Origin: Clostridia bacterium
Lineage (GTDB): Bacteria; Bacillota; Clostridia; Oscillospirales; Acutalibacteraceae
DNA length: 64,000 nucleotides
Assembly (NCBI GenBank): GCA_017550625.1
Contig: JAFZOL010000005.1
Location: forward strand, 1 to 64,000
Direction: 5' to 3'
This document shows positions 2,966 through 38,502 of this stretch, piece by piece (position 1 is the stretch's first letter; each line of letters begins with the position of its first letter). The notes under the pieces were generated by a model. That model ran no database searches and had not been told where the DNA came from. It was given only the letters and a program-made list of their open reading frames with translations. Both the position numbers and the translations under genes were made by a program.

Positions 2966-3940
2966 TTATTCCGCCGTGATCGGGTTCTTGAGCGTCCAGT
3001 TCGCCTCGAGGGGCGCGCCGTTATACTCGAACCATTCGCCGAAATAGAAGTTGCGGATGCGCACGGTCACGCGGTCGGGATACACTTCGAGGATCGCGCC
3101 GAAGCCCGATTGCTCGCTGATCTCGTTGTTGTCCACCGCGCCGGTCAGCTCGGTGCCCATCGGCAGATACACCTCCGGGAAGCCGCTCCACGCGTGATAG
3201 GTCGTGCCGTCGGGCCTGTGGTGCAGATGGCCGCACAGATAAAACAGGTCGTGCTCCCGGTTATACTCTGCGAGCATGCGGCACAGGTCGTATTCCGAGT
3301 CGGGGTTGATGTTCTTCGCCATACGCGGCGGATAGTGCGCGAGCACGAAGGTCGGCAGGCCGCTCTCGGCGGCTTCGGCAAGCCTCTGTTCGAGCCACTC
3401 GAACTGCTCGTCCGACATGTGCATGTTGTCGATGTTCTGCTGCTCGGAGCTCAGCACGATGAAATAAAAGCCGTTAAGCACCTCGCAGTAATAGGGCTTT
3501 TCAAGGTCCAGCCCGAAAAACGCCTTCGTATAATCGAACCAGCGCTGCCGGATCTTTTCATAATCGCCCTCGCCGTTGCCGAAGTCGTGGTTGCCCGGCA
3601 CCGGGATCACCTTTTGGTCCTTCAAAATGCGCTTCACCGTGCCGTGGAAAATGAGGTTCTCGATGTTCTGCCCGTTCATCGTGCTGTCGCCGAGGAACAG
3701 ATAGGCGTCGCTTTTCGTCTCGTTGCAGACGGCGTTTTTGAGGTCGTTCACGAACACCTGATAGCGGGGGATGTTGTTCGACTCCACGTGCACGTCCGAA
3801 AACACCGTGAGGCTCAGCACGCAGGTGTCGGGGTCCTTGACGTCAAACGGCTCGGTCACGGCTGCGCCGGAACCGAACAGCAGCAGGTAAACGGAGGCCA
3901 CCAACAGCGAGATCGCGCGGATGAAAGCACCTTTTATCAT
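2966..3940 (-). CDS. Exported calcineurin-like metallophosphoesterase
   Basis: A 324-residue protein with a signal peptide (hydrophobic residues about 6-28). Metallophosphoesterase metal ligands are in order: FSDVH (D49, H51), LGDS (D85), GNHD (116-119), AHYPP and GHLHH (237-241). It should hydrolyse phosphomono- or diesters outside the cytoplasm with two metal ions; the substrate cannot be told. It is monocistronic with its own promoter. It shares the fold with the two phosphoesterases near 16.5-18.5 kb but is clearly more distant from them than they are from each other (it lacks their shared AGSVG segment). Confidence 0.87.
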   Translation of the reverse strand: MIKGAFIRAISLLVASVYLLLFGSGAAVTEPFDVKDPDTCVLSLTVFSDVHVESNNIPRYQVFVNDLKNAVCNETKSDAYLFLGDSTMNGQNIENLIFHGTVKRILKDQKVIPVPGNHDFGNGEGDYEKIRQRWFDYTKAFFGLDLEKPYYCEVLNGFYFIVLSSEQQNIDNMHMSDEQFEWLEQRLAEAAESGLPTFVLAHYPPRMAKNINPDSEYDLCRMLAEYNREHDLFYLCGHLHHRPDGTTYHAWSGFPEVYLPMGTELTGAVDNNEISEQSGFGAILEVYPDRVTVRIRNFYFGEWFEYNGAPLEANWTLKNPITAE

Positions 3941-3992
3941 ACGTAAACGCTCCTTTTCCGAATTTTATTCTTCCTTTCGGCTTTCGTTCATA

Positions 3993-4021
3993 ATTATACT
4001 ATTTATAACGCGAAAATGCAA
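3993..4021 (-). promoter_or_regulatory. Promoter of the exported phosphoesterase gene
   Basis: Read leftward: TTGCAT, 17 nt, TATAAT. It lies about 50 nt before the start codon. Confidence 0.75.
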
Positions 4022-4032
4022 GCCGTTATTTC

Positions 4033-4061
4033 TTTACACCGCGCGCGTTTCGTGCTATACT
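4033..4061 (+). promoter_or_regulatory. Promoter of ogt
   Basis: TTTACA, 17 nt, TATACT, about 20 nt before the ATG. It is divergent from the phosphoesterase promoter, 11 bp away. Confidence 0.75.
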
Positions 4062-4080
4062 TTAACCGGGAGGGATCGGT

Positions 4081-4563
4081 ATGCTTTACGTCCTCGTTTA
4101 TCAGTCCCCGCTCGGTCCGCTCACGCTCACGTCCGACGGCGAGGCGCTCACGGGACTCCGGTTCGGCTTATCGCCGGAGACAACAGGGGAGACCTGCCCC
4201 GCGCTCGATCGGACGAAACGCTGGCTCGACGTCTATTTCGGCGGGTCCGCCCCCGGTTTCACCCCGCCGCTGCGACTTTCGGGTACACCTTTCCGTCAGG
4301 CGGTGTGGGAGATGCTGCTCACCGTCCCCTTCGGCGAAACGGTCACCTACGGCGAGCTTGCGGCGCGTCTCGCGCGGGAGCTTGGGGTCCCGAAAATGTC
4401 CGCGCAGGCGGTCGGCGGCGCGGTCGGCAAGAATCCGGTCGCGATCATCGTGCCCTGCCACCGCGTGATCGGCGCGGGTCAAAAACTCGTCGGCTATGCC
4501 TCCGGCGTCGATAAAAAGCGCGCCCTGCTCGCGCTCGAGGGAATCTTTATCGACCGATTATGA
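4081..4563 (+). CDS. ogt: Methylated-DNA--protein-cysteine methyltransferase
   Basis: Suicide repair protein of 160 residues that removes alkyl groups from O6-alkylguanine by transfer to its own cysteine. The active-site segment IVPCHRVIG is intact (C126), preceded by VGGAVGKNP, where the family usually has an extra residue and Asn, and followed by GYASGVDKKRALLALE. TPFRQAVWEMLLTVPFGET is the DNA-binding part. The binding site GGGAGG lies 6 nt upstream of the ATG. It is transcribed alone from its own promoter. Confidence 0.93.
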   Translation: MLYVLVYQSPLGPLTLTSDGEALTGLRFGLSPETTGETCPALDRTKRWLDVYFGGSAPGFTPPLRLSGTPFRQAVWEMLLTVPFGETVTYGELAARLARELGVPKMSAQAVGGAVGKNPVAIIVPCHRVIGAGQKLVGYASGVDKKRALLALEGIFIDRL

Positions 4564-4665
4564 CGGCGTTTTTGCCAAATCTTACATTGCAACATTTTGT
4601 AGCGTGACATTTTCGCGCAAACGTGATATCGTGTAGTTGCAACCGAAAGAGGGGAGGGAATTCTT

Positions 4666-6126
4666 TTGGCGCATATTTCGAAAAACATCAAAAACCTGCG
4701 CATCGACCGGCACCTGACGCAGGAGGCGCTCGCCGCGCGCATGAACGTGACGCGGCAGACCGTGTCGTCGTGGGAGACCGGGCGCACGCAGCCGGACGTC
4801 GACATGCTCATGCGTTTGGCGTGGGCGCTGCAGACGGACGTCGAAACGCTCATCTACGGCAGCCGCAGCAAGGTCGGCCTCGAGGCGGACCCGGCCGTCG
4901 GCCGCCGCACGCTCACCGTCGTGCTCACCGTGATGGGCACGCTGTTCTCGGTGCTCGGCCTCGTGCTCATCTTCGTGTTCTTCTGGCGCGAGATCCCGGG
5001 GTTCTTCAAAAAGTCGCTGGCGTTTCTGCCGCTCACGGTCGGCGCCGCGGCAGGCGTCACGGTCCTGCTCAAAAACGAAAAACGCCTCTTCTTCCGCGAG
5101 GGCGCCGCCGTTTTATGGACGGCGGGGCTCGTGGCGACAGGGGCGTTGGTCAACGCCGTGTTCGGCGCGTCGATGCGGTTTGTGACCCTGCTTCTGGCGG
5201 ATATCCTGCTCACGCTGCCGCTCATGTTCCTGTTCGATTCCGTGTTCGCGTTCTCGTTCGCGCTCTTCGCGGGCTTTCTTGAGATGACCCAAACGGCGGA
5301 CGACTCTTGGCGGCCGGTCATCCCGCTGTGGCTGTGGTTTGGGGTCGGCGCCGCCATTCTGCTCACGTGCCTCATCTATCATCTGAAGCGCGAAAAAAAC
5401 GTTTCGCTCGCAAAATACGAAACGTGGATGCTGCTGCTCCACACGTTCGCGTTCGGCATTTTTACCTTTCCTTTCGTCACCGAAGAACCGTTCATGCGTA
5501 TCATCATACAGCAGTTCCTGACGTTCGGGCCTTGCCTGTTCCTCGCCGGCACCGCGATCAGGACGGAGCTTTCGCTGCGCGTGCCCGGCGCCGTGTTCGG
5601 CGGCGTGACGCTGTTCGTCACCGCCGCGGTGTTCGAGCTCAGCAAAGGCGATATCGACCGGCTCATGTTCAGGCTCCCGCTTATCATTGAACTCGTCCTG
5701 TCCGCCGCTGCGATCGGCTTCTGTCTCGTGTGGGGCTTGCGTAAAAAACCGCTCGACGCCATCGGTTATTGCATGGCGGCGGTGCTGCTCCTTTCGCTGC
5801 CGCTCACGCTGCTTGTCGGCGAAAAGGGCTTTATGCTGCCCCTTTTGTCCACGCTCCTGTTCGGTGTGCTCACGGTCGTTTCGGGCGTGAAAAACGCCCG
5901 CATCGCGCGCGCTAACGCCGGCATCGTGAACGTCTGCGGGGCGTTCATCCTCGTGATCGCGGCGTTCTCCGATAACATCCTGCTGTTGGGCCTCACGGCT
6001 CTGCTCACCGGCGTCGTGCTGCTGGCGGCGAACCTCGCCATGGTCAAGCGCTTCAAAAAACGGACGGAAGAACTGCCGCCCGACCCCGTTGACCCTCAGG
6101 GAGAGGAGGCGGCCGACCATGCGTAA
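4666..6126 (+). CDS. XRE-family HTH regulator fused to a polytopic membrane domain
   Basis: Residues 1-60 form an XRE/Cro-type helix-turn-helix (LTQEALAARMNVTRQTVSSW and PDVDMLMRLAWAL). From about residue 80 onward there are roughly 14 hydrophobic segments with short loops, which gives a membrane-anchored DNA-binding protein of 486 residues. The start is TTG after GGGGAGGG; no ATG lies upstream in frame. The membrane part is loosely reminiscent of DUF2157/DUF4401 membrane proteins, an impression and not a firm match. The next gene overlaps by 8 nt, so the two products are probably co-translated partners. A weak promoter-like pair (GTGACA, 17 nt, TATCGT) lies in the 100 bp upstream. The signal sensed is unknown. 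Confidence 0.8.
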   Translation: MAHISKNIKNLRIDRHLTQEALAARMNVTRQTVSSWETGRTQPDVDMLMRLAWALQTDVETLIYGSRSKVGLEADPAVGRRTLTVVLTVMGTLFSVLGLVLIFVFFWREIPGFFKKSLAFLPLTVGAAAGVTVLLKNEKRLFFREGAAVLWTAGLVATGALVNAVFGASMRFVTLLLADILLTLPLMFLFDSVFAFSFALFAGFLEMTQTADDSWRPVIPLWLWFGVGAAILLTCLIYHLKREKNVSLAKYETWMLLLHTFAFGIFTFPFVTEEPFMRIIIQQFLTFGPCLFLAGTAIRTELSLRVPGAVFGGVTLFVTAAVFELSKGDIDRLMFRLPLIIELVLSAAAIGFCLVWGLRKKPLDAIGYCMAAVLLLSLPLTLLVGEKGFMLPLLSTLLFGVLTVVSGVKNARIARANAGIVNVCGAFILVIAAFSDNILLLGLTALLTGVVLLAANLAMVKRFKKRTEELPPDPVDPQGEEAADHA

Positions 6127-6718
6127 ACTCATCGCCGTCATGCTCGCCGTGCTGCAATTCGCGTTCTGCGCGTTCGTGGCGGGCAAAAACGTGCTCGACG
6201 AAAAAGAGCGTAAACAACACCTTGCGAACGCCCGAGCCTACGGCGAACAGGTATTGCTGCGCCCCGAGGGATTCCAGATCATTGAAACGGAAGACCGTGA
6301 ATGGCAGTTGCTGTCCCTGTCCGTAACGGGATACGACAGATTCTACGAGCAGGATGAGCTCATACCGTTTGCCGCGGATGAAGACGGGTATTACGTGATC
6401 GACCCGCATGCGGGCAACGCCCTCACCGTGCGCGCCGGCCCCATCGACCGCGCGGGGACCTACGACAGCGTCCACTACGGGATCTTTATCCTCGACCAGA
6501 CCGCCGCCGCGGCAGCCTTCGGCGAAGACCGCGCGGCCGACAACGTGCCGTCCGATGAGGTATGGGGACGCTGGTACGGCGATTTCGGCTGGGGGATCGA
6601 GGTCGGCGGACGCGCGGCGGAGGTCGCGGTCAGCGCGATCATCTACGACAACGAGCTCTATCTGACCGGCCTCGTCGTCAACGGACAGCAGATCCCGATC
6701 ATCGAAACCGTCGAATGA
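6119..6718 (+). CDS. Small membrane-anchored protein, partner of the XRE membrane regulator
   Basis: A 199-residue protein with an N-terminal hydrophobic segment (residues 3-20), either a signal peptide or an anchor, followed by an apparently extracytoplasmic domain. ATG at 6119 is chosen because AGGAGG lies about 10 nt upstream; the TTG at 6089 has no such site. The gene overlaps its neighbour by 8 nt. The tract GRWYGDFGWGIEV and the pairing with a multi-pass protein recall the GDYXXLXY/DUF4401 pairs, but the defining motif is not intact, so no family is assigned. Function unknown. Confidence 0.75.
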   Translation: MRKLIAVMLAVLQFAFCAFVAGKNVLDEKERKQHLANARAYGEQVLLRPEGFQIIETEDREWQLLSLSVTGYDRFYEQDELIPFAADEDGYYVIDPHAGNALTVRAGPIDRAGTYDSVHYGIFILDQTAAAAAFGEDRAADNVPSDEVWGRWYGDFGWGIEVGGRAAEVAVSAIIYDNELYLTGLVVNGQQIPIIETVE

Positions 6719-6737
6719 AGCAAAGAATAAGTAAAAG

Positions 6738-6765
6738 ACGGGAGCGGTTTTGCCGCTCCCGTTTT
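6738..6765 (+). terminator. Intrinsic terminator of the XRE operon
   Basis: ACGGGAGCGG and CCGCTCCCGT form a perfect 10-bp stem with a 5-nt loop, followed by TTTT. Confidence 0.9.
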
Positions 6766-6777
6766 CTGTATTTCTTC

Positions 6778-6806
6778 TTGACTTCTTCCGCCGGACGCTG
6801 TATACT
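6778..6806 (+). promoter_or_regulatory. Promoter of putative small RNA A
   Basis: TTGACT, 17 nt, TATACT. It starts 13 bp after the preceding terminator, so it opens a new transcription unit. Confidence 0.8.
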
Positions 6807-6812
6807 GCGATC

Positions 6813-6939
6813 GGAGAACAGCGGAGGGGTGCAGTGCCGGTTTTATCGACAGTCGCCTCACTGATGCTGTTTTCGGGCCGCGGAGAATGTGGAGTATTTT
6901 GAAGTCGTTCGAGTCTTCGCCACAGTAACGCGGTTTTTT
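6813..6939 (+). ncRNA. Putative structured small RNA A (may also encode a short peptide)
   Basis: About 127 nt between a near-consensus promoter and an intrinsic terminator. The first nine transcribed bases, GAGAACAGC (6814-6822), pair fully with GCTGTTTTC (6866-6874) if one G-U pair is allowed, enclosing an inner CAGTG/CACTG stem. A second, nested hairpin (CCGCG 6878, GTGG 6889, GAAG 6901 with CTTC 6915, CCAC 6920, CGCGG 6929) ends in six T. No known RNA family was recognised. Confidence 0.55.
6834..6902 (+). CDS. Possible 22-residue hydrophobic peptide inside RNA A
   Basis: A GTG start with GGAGG 6 nt upstream opens a 22-codon frame (MPVLSTVASLMLFSG, then seven residues) that ends within the loop side of the terminator hairpin. 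The binding site is strong and correctly spaced. The peptide could be a leader peptide, a small membrane peptide or chance. The 5' stem of RNA A encloses the binding site, so translation may depend on RNA folding. Confidence 0.3.
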   Translation: MPVLSTVASLMLFSGRGECGVF

Positions 6940-6951
6940 ATAAAAAGTTTC

Positions 6952-6981
6952 TTGACTTTTGTCCTCATCCTATGGTATAAA
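6952..6981 (+). promoter_or_regulatory. Promoter of putative small RNA B
   Basis: TTGACT, 18 nt, TATAAA. The -35 box begins 12 nt after the T-run of the RNA A terminator. Confidence 0.72.
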
Positions 6982-6987
6982 GGCTCC

Positions 6988-7066
6988 GGAAGCTGTACCG
7001 TTGATCGCTTTGGGCGTATTGTTAGGGGCTTGTTCACCTATCGTCGCGGCAAGGCTTCTTTTTTTT
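6988..7066 (+). ncRNA. Putative small RNA B with a 5'-3' closing stem
   Basis: About 75 nt. GAAGC at the predicted 5' end (6989-6993) pairs with GCTTC (7054-7058), which is followed by eight T, so the closing stem would double as the terminator. The interior is moderately GC-rich. The translated codons GCT GTA CCG TTG ATC resemble the codons at the peptide start of RNA A (GCA GTG CCG GTT TTA), perhaps a trace of duplication. No family recognised. Confidence 0.45.
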
Positions 7067-7078
7067 GTAAAAGTTTTC

Positions 7079-7107
7079 TTGACAAACCGCCCGATCTGTG
7101 CTACTAT
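7079..7107 (+). promoter_or_regulatory. Promoter of putative small RNA C
   Basis: TTGACA, 17 nt, TACTAT, again starting about 12 nt after the T-run of the preceding unit. Confidence 0.75.
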
Positions 7108-7113
7108 CTGCAA

Positions 7114-7200
7114 AAAAGAGACGCGCGGGCGTGTTAAGCCTCCCAAGCTTAAGAGGAGTCCCTGGCACTCCGTCTTCGGCGGAAGCTGCGGTCTCTTTTT
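7114..7200 (+). ncRNA. Putative small RNA C, multi-hairpin with a 5'-3' closing stem
   Basis: About 87 nt. AAAGAGAC at the predicted 5' end (7115-7122) pairs perfectly with GTCTCTTT (7191-7198), followed by more T. Inside are three small hairpins: TTAAGC/GCTTAA (7134/7147), GGAGT/ACTCC (7155/7167) and CTTC/GAAG (7174/7182). A closed multi-branch shape with its own promoter is typical of a stable RNA. The SRP RNA, 6S and tmRNA signatures were looked for and not found. Confidence 0.5.
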
Positions 7201-7207
7201 ATTGAAA

Positions 7208-7267
7208 GATCTTCGGTTTCCGTTTCAGCACTTCTCGCTGTTATGTCAGAAGCCGCGGGTCTTTTTT
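7208..7267 (+). terminator. Second terminator after RNA C
   Basis: GATCTTCGG (7208-7216) pairs with CCGCGGGTC (7253-7261) with one mismatch and G-U pairs, followed by seven T. It could stop read-through into the convergent GNAT gene. The loop is long (36 nt). Confidence 0.5.
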
Positions 7268-7707
7268 TATTCCTTCTCCGTCAGGTCCTTGACGAAATAA
7301 TACTTCGACAGCGCCGGGTCGTCCCTGTCCTCGCGCACGTATTCGAGCCGGTAGCCGCGTTTTTCATAAAACCCCGGCGCCTGGAACCGGTGGGTCGATA
7401 CCGTCACATACCGGGCCCCGCGCGCTTTGAGGTCGCGCTCCGCGGCGTTTAGCAGGGCCGTGCCCACGCCCTGTCCGCGATAAGCCTCCGCCACAATGAG
7501 TTCGCTCACGTGCGCCTCATGATAGAGCGTGTGCCCCGTCACAACGCCCGCGGTCTCGTCGCCTGCCTTCGCTTCATACGCGAAGGGCTCGTACCGCCCT
7601 CTGATCCCGTGGCTCTCGGCGTGGACGGCGAACGTGTCGCGGATGAACGCGTCGAACGCCTCGGTTTCCTCCGTCACGGGGATGATCTTCACGTCCTTCA
7701 CGCTCAT
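7267..7707 (-). CDS. GNAT-family N-acetyltransferase
   Basis: A 146-residue acetyltransferase. The acetyl-CoA-binding motif A is clear: VSELIVAEAYRGQGVGTALL, with R/QGxGxA. It is followed by the helix ERDLKARGARYVTVST and the C-terminal GFYEKRGYRLEYV, all typical of GNAT. The substrate is unknown. The ATG overlaps the stop of the NUDIX gene in an ATGA arrangement, so translation is probably coupled. The GGAGG there lies too close for the ATG but 7 nt before the GTG two codons on, so that codon is an alternative start. Confidence 0.85.
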   Translation of the reverse strand: MSVKDVKIIPVTEETEAFDAFIRDTFAVHAESHGIRGRYEPFAYEAKAGDETAGVVTGHTLYHEAHVSELIVAEAYRGQGVGTALLNAAERDLKARGARYVTVSTHRFQAPGFYEKRGYRLEYVREDRDDPALSKYYFVKDLTEKE

Positions 7708-8198
7708 TCCTCCGTCCTCTCGTCGGTCACGATGTGCTTCAAGCCCGCGAAGGGCACCTTGAGCTCGGTGCGGAAAAACGCGGGGTAATACCGCTCGTCG
7801 CTCTCCGGCGACACCCACACGAGCGCTTCCTTCTGCCCGGCGTTCGTCGTGCTCTCGCACACGGGCTCGAAGTTTTCTGGCGTTTTCATAAAGAAATAAA
7901 ACGAAATTTCATAGATGAGCGTCCCCTGCCGGGGCGAGCCTTCGTCTTTGTCGACGAAAAACGTCTCGTGGATGAATCCGAGCCTGTCGACCTCCATTTT
8001 CACGCCGGTCTCTTCTTCAACCTCGCGCACCACGGCCTCGGCGGAAGTCTCGCCGAACGCGATGCGCCCGCCCACGGAATAATAATAGTCCGCGGCGGGG
8101 TTTTTCACCATCAGCACCTTGCCGTCCTTTTGGATGATCGCGCCCACGCGCACGTTGAGCAGCCCCCCGTCCGCCGGCAGCGTCAGATCGTTTTTCAC
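7704..8198 (-). CDS. NUDIX hydrolase
   Basis: Hydrolyses a nucleoside-diphosphate-linked substrate with Mg2+. The Nudix box is present: GRIAFGETSAEAVVREVEEE followed by TG (GX5EX7REVXEEXG pattern; the usual U-G-G start is GGRIAFGE). The length of 164 residues is normal. GTG at 8198 is chosen because GAGGG lies 7 nt upstream; an in-frame ATG 30 nt earlier overlaps the promoter start region. It is the first gene of a two-gene unit with the GNAT gene. Substrate specificity cannot be inferred. Confidence 0.87.
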   Translation of the reverse strand: MKNDLTLPADGGLLNVRVGAIIQKDGKVLMVKNPAADYYYSVGGRIAFGETSAEAVVREVEEETGVKMEVDRLGFIHETFFVDKDEGSPRQGTLIYEISFYFFMKTPENFEPVCESTTNAGQKEALVWVSPESDERYYPAFFRTELKVPFAGLKHIVTDERTEE

Positions 8199-8756: not shown

Positions 8757-9440
8757 ATGTCCCGCTACCCGCGCGATCCGAATCTGCACCGCAACCACCG
8801 TTCGCGGCTGCGCAAAAAGGCGCTGGAGCAGGGCGTCGACTGCCTTGAGGACCACGAGCTGCTCGAGCTCATCCTGTTCTCGTCCGTCCCGCGCGTCGAC
8901 ACCAACGAGACCGCGCACGCGGCGATCAACGCCTTCGGCTCCCTCGGCGGGGTGCTCGCCGCCGACCCTGATCAACTCCTCGCCCTGCCGCGCGTCGGCC
9001 CGCGCTCGGTGGAGCTGCTCAAAACCCTGCAGGCGCTCTGTACGCGCTACGTCAGCGGCTTCGGCGTCGGCGGGCGCGTGCTGTCCGGCTCCGACGAGGT
9101 CGTGCGCCTCGGCGAAACGTGGTATCCCGTCCGCGGCAGCAGCAATTTGTGCGTCGTTTCCATGGATTCGCTCCGGCGCGTGCTCAAGACTTCGGTCTTC
9201 CGTGTCGAGACCACCACGGTCCGCGCCCGGCTGACGCAGGTACTGCGCGAGGCGCAGGCGACCTACGCCTCGGCCGTGGCGGTCGCCTACGTCGGGGCGG
9301 GGGATTTCGCCGCCCCCACGCGCGAGGACCGCATCTTTTATAAAGAGCTCATCTCCCTGCTCTCGTCGCACGATATGACCCTCACCGAATGCGTGGTGTT
9401 CTCGGGCGGCAAGGCCTTCGCGATGTCCCTCTACCGCTGA
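8757..9440 (+). CDS. RadC-like protein lacking the JAMM metal site
   Basis: A 227-residue protein with the RadC N-terminal helix-hairpin-helix region (DHELLELILFSSVPRVDTNE, LLALPRVGPRSVELLK) and a C-terminal domain that follows the RadC/JAB order. The catalytic HxHPSGxxxxSxxD signature is missing: where it is expected the protein reads VAVAYVGAGDFAAPTREDR. It should therefore be catalytically inactive as a JAMM metalloprotein, while the DNA-binding region looks kept. A convergent neighbour is a RadC-like protein with the site intact. Binding site GAGAGGAG, 8 nt before the ATG. Confidence 0.78.
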   Translation: MSRYPRDPNLHRNHRSRLRKKALEQGVDCLEDHELLELILFSSVPRVDTNETAHAAINAFGSLGGVLAADPDQLLALPRVGPRSVELLKTLQALCTRYVSGFGVGGRVLSGSDEVVRLGETWYPVRGSSNLCVVSMDSLRRVLKTSVFRVETTTVRARLTQVLREAQATYASAVAVAYVGAGDFAAPTREDRIFYKELISLLSSHDMTLTECVVFSGGKAFAMSLYR

Positions 9441-9457
9441 TCCCTGCATATATAAAT

Positions 9458-9489
9458 GGCGCGTCACCCGACGCGCCTTCGTTTTTTTT
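9458..9489 (+). terminator. Intrinsic terminator between the RadC-like genes
   Basis: GGCGCGTC, 4-nt loop, GACGCGCC, then TTC and a run of eight T. Confidence 0.9.
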
Positions 9490-10189
9490 ATTTCCCGTAT
9501 CCCGTGAACCCGATCATCCCGCGCGGCGCGCCCGCGGCCATGCTGCGGCAGCCGTCGCGCGAAAACACCAGATGGTCCGCCACCCCGATGCCGAAATCTC
9601 TGAGCGAATTCACGAGCCGCTGCGTCACCACGTAGTCGGTGATCGAGGGGGCCGAGGTTCCGCCGGGATGCGAGTGGCTGAGCACAACCTTCGCCGCCGA
9701 AACGGGCAGGGCTTTCTCGAGGATCGCCTCGGGGCGCAGCTCCACCGAGTTGCCTCCGCCCGTGTTGAGGCGGAACACCCCGCGCACGCGCCCGTCGGCG
9801 TCGAGCGCCAGCATCACAGCCGCCTCGCGCGCGTAGCCGACGTAAAAGGGGCGCAGGATCTCCTGCGCGTCCTCGAAGGATCTCACGACCTTGTCCCGCG
9901 TGCCGCCCTGCATCGCCCGCCGGCACAGCGTCGGGATCGCCCTGAGTAACAGCAGCGTGCGGTCGCTCAGGCCCTCCAGCGGCCGGTCGGACGCGCCCAC
10001 GGCGTCGAGAAACGGCGTCAGCCCTCCGTAAACGGCGTCGATCCCGTCGAGCAGCTCCTCGGCCGTCTCCTCGCCGTTTTCAAACAGCAGCAGCGTTTTG
10101 AGCAGCGCGCGGTCCTCTTTCGTCAGCCCCGCGTCGGTTTCCGGCGCGATATCCGCGCGTTCAAATATCGTTTCGTCCCGTCCGGACAT
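9488..10189 (-). CDS. RadC/JAB-domain protein with intact metal motif
   Basis: A 233-residue RadC-family protein. The zinc-binding JAMM motif is complete (LSHSHPGGTSAPSITDYV: two His and Asp, with Ser in place), followed by GIGVADHLVFSRDG. The N-terminal part is a diverged helical/HhH segment. Despite its name RadC has no proven repair role; the JAB domain is found in mobile-element and DNA-processing proteins. ATG at 10189 is preferred to the GTG three codons earlier because GAGGTGAGG precedes it. It converges with the JAMM-less paralogue. Confidence 0.82.
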   Translation of the reverse strand: MSGRDETIFERADIAPETDAGLTKEDRALLKTLLLFENGEETAEELLDGIDAVYGGLTPFLDAVGASDRPLEGLSDRTLLLLRAIPTLCRRAMQGGTRDKVVRSFEDAQEILRPFYVGYAREAAVMLALDADGRVRGVFRLNTGGGNSVELRPEAILEKALPVSAAKVVLSHSHPGGTSAPSITDYVVTQRLVNSLRDFGIGVADHLVFSRDGCRSMAAGAPRGMIGFTGYGK

Positions 10190-10210
10190 CGCCCTCACCT
10201 CTTTTTTCTC

Positions 10211-38473: not shown

Positions 38474-38502
38474 TTGACAAACGCCCGATGAGATAATATA
38501 AT
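38474..38502 (+). promoter_or_regulatory. Consensus promoter of the DUF177-rpmF unit
   Basis: TTGACA, 17 nt, TATAAT: a full match to the sigma-A consensus, the best in the window, as expected for a ribosomal protein operon. Confidence 0.93.

Follow-up and report, generated by a model that had tools for sequence, protein, structure and literature searches.

Type III toxin-antitoxin systems (ToxIN, CptIN and TenpIN) place the gene of an endoribonuclease beside a folded noncoding RNA in tandem units that neutralises the protein; the antitoxin consists of short tandem sequence repeats and lies upstream of the toxin in one operon, with a terminator between the two (PMC5086642, parts compared). Among phage-borne RNA antidotes of Clostridia with experimental support, the one that comes closest in the literature compared is AbiF-RCd22 of a Clostridioides difficile prophage: a structured RNA, which precedes the gene and has two abiF motifs, neutralises a phage-borne protein of the Abi_2 family both in cis and in trans (PMC12373285, parts compared). 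MuF polymorphic toxins and phage polyvalent proteins carry the MuF_C and PBECR nuclease domains of phages and mobile elements and are treated with protein immunity or none in the parts compared of the two papers concerned, from which RNA partners are absent (PMC5576092, PMC5512222), and the orphan immunity genes of type VI secretion systems form arrays which encode proteins (PMC5361080, parts compared). Here we describe an array of small RNAs which has features in common with each of these systems. It occupies a stretch of about 450 bases within positions 1 to 64,000 of contig JAFZOL010000005.1 of a Clostridia bacterium (Acutalibacteraceae, assembly GCA_017550625.1); these 64,000 nucleotides were analysed as a whole and are referred to as the window. 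The array is composed of five closed RNAs (A1, A2, B, C and D) behind three promoters, as read from sequence and folding, and is probably an orphan array of RNA antitoxins, type III-like in action, directed against phage-delivered nucleases of the BECR fold.

Each RNA appears to be compact with paired 5' and 3' ends, and would be served by sigma-A-type promoters and intrinsic terminators. The elements of the array are:

6778..6806, + strand: promoter A, TTGACT-17-TATACT (sequence and scans)
6814..6873, + strand: RNA A1, closing stem GAGAACAGC/GCUGUUUUC (folding)
6874..6939, + strand: RNA A2, closing stem CCGCG/CGCGG and T-run (folding; proven relatives none)
6952..6981, + strand: promoter B, TTGACT-18-TATAAA (sequence and combined scan)
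6985..7068, + strand: RNA B, three-way junction P1 to P4 with terminator T-run, family R1
7079..7107, + strand: promoter C, TTGACA-17-TACTAT (sequence and scans)
7112..7201, + strand: RNA C, closing stem AAAAAGAGAC/GUCUCUUUUU and core GUGUUAAG-CUCCC..GGAGUCCCUGGCAC (folding; one relative, in genome G361)
7204..7268, + strand: RNA D, closed hairpin and T-run without a promoter of its own, possibly the second unit of transcript C

All three promoters that an earlier note on this DNA had described are present, at 6778, 6952 and 7079. The -35 boxes of B and C start 12 nucleotides past the preceding T-runs, as the note had also described, and the pairing of 5' and 3' ends that it had seen in units B and C is recovered by folding as closed RNAs. 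Unit A contains two closed hairpin domains (A1 and A2). The suggestion that the units are related by duplication is not supported, since direct repeats between them are confined to the block of T-run and -35 box (23 nucleotides at 87% and 21 nucleotides at 71% identity) and to 14 nucleotides at the T-runs of C and D; a covariance model of B (R1) matches B only when run over the whole window, and the model of C (R2) matches C and not B.

Chance hairpins and promoters in the gap, or stacked terminators of convergent genes, are an extremely improbable source of this arrangement. Terminators are to be expected between convergent genes, and a simpler promoter scan of positions 6000-8000, which missed promoter B, found 2 sites compared with 0.6 in shuffles and was thus only slightly above them. 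A combined scan for promoter, closing stem and T-run found 6 sites in 64 kb, of which 3 lie inside 430 bp in the array and 3 elsewhere, whereas 20 dinucleotide shuffles of the whole window gave a mean of 0.85 on both strands. Taken with the conservation and covariation of B and with the relative of C that has its own promoter, this result argues against chance, which the comparative evidence refutes for B and makes very unlikely for C, and which is possible for A and D. In comparison with shuffled sequences D is the most stable element (z -5.8), followed by A (-2.8), C (-2.7) and B (-0.1).

The strongest evidence for a real RNA concerns unit B. A DNA search gave hits in 40 of 398 genomes of the taxonomic family, most of them 20-47 nucleotides long; among these 40, three relatives of B, the relative of C and a few others were examined, and the true relatives of B by blastn have 82% (G412), 78% (G375) and 73% (G046) identity. 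R1 was built from six sequences (the window copy, one from each of these three genomes, and two units found on the IMG/VR phage contig L130), and it matches 18 of the 398 genomes at E<=0.05, of which 14 were accepted, four of these copies being training sequences of the model. Three matches were rejected as short plain hairpins (G315, G334, G416) and one because it scores 25 bits and overlaps open reading frames (G207); among the R1 hits set aside, the loci L147-L149 are plain hairpins of 40-48 nucleotides and L150 overlaps open reading frames. The window itself scores 96.4 bits at 6985-7068, being one of the six training sequences, and has the conserved P1-P4 junction, and the blastn support is independent of the model. 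The fold of the family is a three-way junction: P1 closes it, and it further comprises P2, the variable hairpin P4 and a small hairpin with the sequence CGY-UUYGG-RCG. In a MAFFT alignment of 18 copies (A7), comprising 17 of the 25 model matches (8 were dropped) and the overlapping first unit of L130, 16 of 20 base pairs of B show two-sided changes. Two-sided cells number 57 as opposed to 18.1 +/- 4.4 in shuffles, none of 500 shuffles reaching 57, and 87.2% of cells are paired compared with 35-47% when the partners are slid. The RNAalifold consensus of the same alignment keeps P1 and P4 but not the hand-drawn P2. On this comparative evidence unit B is a real RNA family, whose fold, conservation and covariation are direct observations. 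The compensatory changes for which the earlier note had proposed to look are found across the aligned copies of B; loci with a relative of a gene flanking the array hold no match to A1-D by nhmmer.

The second line of evidence is the genomic linkage of B to a predicted nuclease domain. In seven loci a PBECR3 domain has a copy of B at its 3' end, in antisense orientation; two of these loci were fetched by protein alone and one was matched separately by protein and by RNA. In G377, G412, G046 and G254 the RNA is on the opposite strand and ends at the 3' end of the domain, which was assigned by Pfam PF18812 for the last three and by a profile seeded with G412 and G046 for G377. In three of these four the domain belongs to a long polyvalent reading frame which continues across the RNA, so that the complement of B encodes a linker that appears by eye to be rich in serine, threonine, asparagine and proline. 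In G091 a copy of B is found beside a peptide read as a remnant of PBECR3; the locus concerned (L142, 806-1973) has the look of a decayed polyvalent coding region, in which there are four promoter-RNA units in antisense orientation and a remnant resembling a toxin. A search of IMG/VR with the PBECR3 alignment alone returned two loci, both of which are PBECR3 by Pfam and both of which have B at that place (4e-19 and 4e-16). Among 50,697 phage records RNA B matches one (MT838554, R1 87 bits) and PBECR3 matches two, including MT838554, where RNA and domain are adjacent; the second PBECR3 record is a partial match in a Rhizobium phage. Plasmids yielded no match to PBECR3 or to the array, and the phages yielded none to the L167 protein described below or to the array DNA.

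These reverse searches bear on the view that the array is a cluster of ordinary trans-acting regulatory RNAs and that the linkage to toxins is incidental. The anatomy of promoter, RNA and terminator would suit such RNAs, and the genes flanking the array are not phage-like by Pfam; independent tests that start from the nuclease and recover the RNA nevertheless make this view improbable to a marked degree, and for B it is strongly disfavoured. The earlier note had read the locus as three stable regulatory RNAs. Discrete stable RNAs are supported, for B by covariation, for C by a single relative that shares its core and has a 17-nucleotide-spaced promoter, and for A and D by anatomy alone; a generic regulatory role is improbable, since the linkage of B, C and a further family E to nuclease domains points to RNA antitoxins.

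The relative of C in G361 has a 17-nucleotide-spaced promoter and is encoded on the opposite strand where a MuF_C domain ends. Pattern scans and R2 found no relative of C beyond G361, and hits of R2 in L172-L174 were rejected since they lie inside ordinary open reading frames. In IMG/VR there was no match to the C pattern or to the family-E pattern, and MuF_C searches with two proteins gave no relatives. A tRNA-like reading of C, prompted by its 7-nucleotide CUCCCAA loop, was discarded: ARAGORN finds no tRNA in the window and G361 lacks the hairpin, by eye. Family E is defined by the core GGCAATTGSAGCC and occurs in the arrays of G375 and G087 and in the phage contig L130; in L167, which belongs to the genus of the window, it lies antisense behind a MuF_C domain. 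It was not found in the window array by eye. As the PBECR superfamily counts MuF-C as a member (PMC5512222, parts compared), the partners of B, C and E would all belong to one predicted endoribonuclease superfamily.

An arrangement of this kind is not restricted to B. Ten polyvalent stretches totalling 27,673 bases were scanned under strict settings and contain 11 antisense closed units and no sense ones. The mean over 100 shuffles was 0.27, with at most 2 in any of them, and 80 other loci used as background gave 3 units in 603,620 bases. Four of the ten stretches had been fetched via the RNA and six via the protein, the latter holding 7 of the 11 units; L152 has no strict unit, yet contains B by the model. 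In L151 (IMG/VR, 3496-6243) three antisense promoter-RNA units are seen in one polyvalent reading frame, situated behind PBECR3, behind a stretch that Pfam does not name and behind a weak LPD3-like match. Elsewhere, mixed RNA arrays lie beside 23S rRNA and a tRNA in L145, L137, L139, L123 and L144, and also beside genes resembling by eye RNase J/RNase H, typA and aspS, as if these were chromosomal hot spots.

A survey of 329 family genomes found PF18812 17 times, in 16 of them. Eleven of the 17 are followed on the same strand by a skipping-rope RNA (RF02924) which starts 29-57 nucleotides after the stop codon, two have B, and three have another antisense closed unit (L164, L166 and L167, the domain of L167 being a better fit to MuF_C than to PBECR3); for one (L155) Rfam found no RNA at E<=0.01. 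The skipping-rope RNA is found behind solo PBECR3 genes in L153, L154, L156, L157, L160-L163, L165 and L168, and L161 has two such genes and three skipping-rope RNAs in tandem. A human faecal phage (MT835941) likewise carries a solo PBECR3 relative with a skipping-rope RNA downstream. Like B, skipping-rope is a small structured RNA with a partner of the PBECR3 domain family, but it differs in sequence from the RNAs of the window, where RF02924 has no match at the gathering score, nor any in 6700-7300 at E<=10. In the part of PMC7779021 compared, the RNA appears only as a pseudoknot drawing. That no known family is recognised in the window, as the earlier note had it, agrees with Rfam, which gives no match at the gathering score; the best hit in 6700-7300 at E<=10 is FuFi-1 (E 0.031, 20.5 bits compared with a cut-off of 59.6), on the opposite strand.

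The antisense position raises the question of whether these are type I-like RNAs, which would pair with the mRNA of the overlapped toxin or polyvalent protein and lower its expression, the array copies being relics. Where the RNA overlaps a polyvalent frame, its position makes it a perfect antisense to the linker in that mRNA, and the B of the window pairs well with the mRNA of G377. The compensatory changes, however, preserve the fold and not the sequence, and the skipping-rope RNAs, which follow their toxin gene on the same strand, have no more complementarity to its mRNA than shuffled RNAs have (lowest z -1.9 among the 9 tested of 12 linked copies). Complementarity is present in cis for polyvalent linkers by geometry, in 0 of 9 solo toxins and in 1 of 7 cases in trans. 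The toxin-free array copies retain promoter, stem and terminator, and a toxin that arrives as a protein would presumably not be stopped by pairing with an mRNA. Antisense control is accordingly the less likely account, and we consider it unlikely in its own right.

The copies of B which lack a PBECR3 domain are informative with regard to the window. Nine of the 14 accepted copies have no PBECR3 in their flanks, which were inspected up to 1.5 kb or to the contig end for this domain with no search for other toxins. Seven of the nine reside in tandem arrays (window, G375, G266, G087, G269, G077 and G097) and two stand alone (G062 and G098); toxin-linked copies are single. The array of the window has no adjacent toxin gene by Pfam. 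PBECR3 has no match in the genome of the window and neither has MuF_C, the latter in a search without a working positive control, and the array therefore looks orphan.

Several observations weigh against the proposal that the array encodes RNA antitoxins. Of the 14 copies of B accepted in genomes only 4 have a full PBECR3 domain beside them, 6 of the 17 PF18812 hits fall below the Pfam cut-off which the other 11 pass, C is supported by a single other copy, and A1, A2 and D have neither convincing relatives nor a partner. The lack of MuF_C in the genome is a weak absence. RNA B alone folds no better than shuffles, so that its support is comparative and comes from covariation, and the B of the window pairs unusually well with the PBECR3 mRNA of G377 (z -3.8; the other six range from -1.7 to +0.95). 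The AlphaFold model of PBECR3 has low confidence (predicted local distance difference test score, pLDDT, of 56) with no PDB match at E<=0.001, and a profile search of the PDB gave no credible hit; the nuclease fold hence rests on Pfam and on the prediction of Iyer et al. 2017 (PMC5512222, parts compared), and the nuclease activity of PBECR3 and MuF_C is likewise a prediction from these two sources.

We propose that each folded RNA acts by binding and blocking a BECR-fold endoribonuclease domain of one kind, PBECR3 in the case of B and MuF_C in the case of C. The nucleases would be carried by phages and conjugative elements, either solo or as parts of injected polyvalent proteins, and the element that makes the nuclease would encode the cognate RNA at its 3' border, antisense and inside the polyvalent linker; for solo PBECR3 genes the cognate RNA would mostly lie just downstream on the same strand, as skipping-rope. 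In this way an element may protect the cell in which it resides against its toxin, and orphan copies may shield against incoming nucleases, so that chromosomes and some phages would keep nuclease-free copies, often in tandem, as immunity. While the linkage itself is observed, transcription, binding, neutralisation and immunity are what we infer. A different purpose would be served if the RNAs were substrates, guides or decoys of the BECR domains, for instance phage anti-defence RNAs, or host restriction RNAs that PBECR domains would have evolved to cut, and PBECR domains have been speculated to act on an RNA-based mechanism of the host (Iyer et al. 2017, PMC5512222, parts compared). The same physical linkage would be expected in that case, and L130 has two B-family units and an E unit between putative terminase and portal genes; the element that carries the nuclease also encodes the RNA, however, and does so right at the domain. 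Such a layout suits a cognate antidote better than a target and makes this explanation quite unlikely. In L130 the three units occupy 5955-6211 in tandem on the opposite strand, and the flanking genes resemble terminase and portal by eye.

In comparison with type III systems, the action proposed for the RNA antitoxins is alike, as is the occurrence of tandem units, and B is found beside PBECR3 in the seven loci, the window itself having no adjacent toxin gene. The genetic definition, as tested, does not apply in order, operon, repeats or toxin family: the toxins here have PBECR3 or MuF_C domains and are not kin of ToxN, CptN or TenpN, and the RNA is found either antisense to the 3' end or behind the gene under a promoter of its own. 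Unlike the repeats of a type III antitoxin there is usually one RNA per domain, copies of B at such domains being single, and the orphan arrays mix RNAs that are unrelated in sequence. AbiF-RCd22 differs in protein family and in the RNA preceding its gene, and the arrays of orphan immunity genes are alike in organisation but consist of protein genes rather than RNAs. Whether there is a general layer of RNA immunity against the injected effectors of phages and conjugative elements, with a cognate RNA antisense in the linker behind each effector domain of polyvalent proteins and with mixed tandem arrays, complete with promoters and terminators, as an inherited antidote library on bacterial chromosomes, is in our estimate an evenly balanced matter; with the same even prospects, skipping-rope would then be one branch of that layer and the arrays would be the protein-free counterpart of orphan immunity-gene islands. 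If structured RNAs are antidotes, the orphan class skipping-rope gains a likely function, unannotated gaps might be read as a record of phage toxins met in the past, and the toxin blocked by a given RNA could be predicted from that RNA, which amounts to a directly testable pairing code. Antisense RNA genes inside the linkers of giant frames would in themselves be an unusual gene arrangement. Among the matches listed, with subscription literature largely outside their scope, no paper connects an RNA antitoxin with PBECR, MuF or skipping-rope.

The remaining units gave leads of lesser weight. No convincing relatives of A1, A2 and D were obtained, the nhmmer hits for A1 having E values of 4 or worse. 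A hit of 25 nucleotides to A1 in G078 was rejected as it lies inside a RadA-like open reading frame with no surrounding unit, short hits of 28-35 nucleotides to D from the DNA search were unsupported by nhmmer, and by eye the DNA hit in L002 is a promoter block and that in L003 falls within an antiporter-like reading frame. By eye, and as a lead only, the 3' part of A2 (CCACAGTAACG) resembles array units in L137. In L002 (G004, 1501-2497) the 26-nucleotide block of T-run and -35 box from the junction of B and C recurs, by eye, about 54 nucleotides before an Abi_2/AbiF-like gene.

The array is bordered by the following features:

6119..6718, + strand: upstream gene for a protein without a Pfam match (context, outside the array)
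6735..6765, strand not assigned: terminator-like hairpin of 14 bp behind the upstream gene, the left border of the array
7267..7707, - strand: convergent gene for a GNAT acetyltransferase (context)

The hairpin was picked up on the opposite strand too by the simple scan, an XRE/DUF2157 protein precedes the upstream gene, and the T-run of RNA D overlaps the stop codon of the GNAT gene. Among 26 genomes of the genus, relatives of the GNAT protein occur in 2 other genomes (46% and 33%) and relatives of the upstream protein in 4 others (25-35%); both are found only in G017, where they are on different contigs. These synteny loci gave no match to A1-D by nhmmer; L006 and L008-L011 have no unit-like site and L005 has one, on the minus strand. 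The GNAT loci of the named collection are distant (30-55% identity) and were reused as background for the scans. Elsewhere in the window a near-perfect promoter (TTGACA-17-TATAAT) lies ahead of an open reading frame at 38474-38502; the site was not retained as an RNA unit since the stem that the scan assigned to it is probably fortuitous. Two convergent genes encode RadC-like proteins (8757-9440, + strand, a weak match, and 9488-10198, - strand), and the gene at 1166-2896 encodes what appears by eye to be a polyferredoxin-like membrane protein with a long, repetitive linker rich in threonine and proline.
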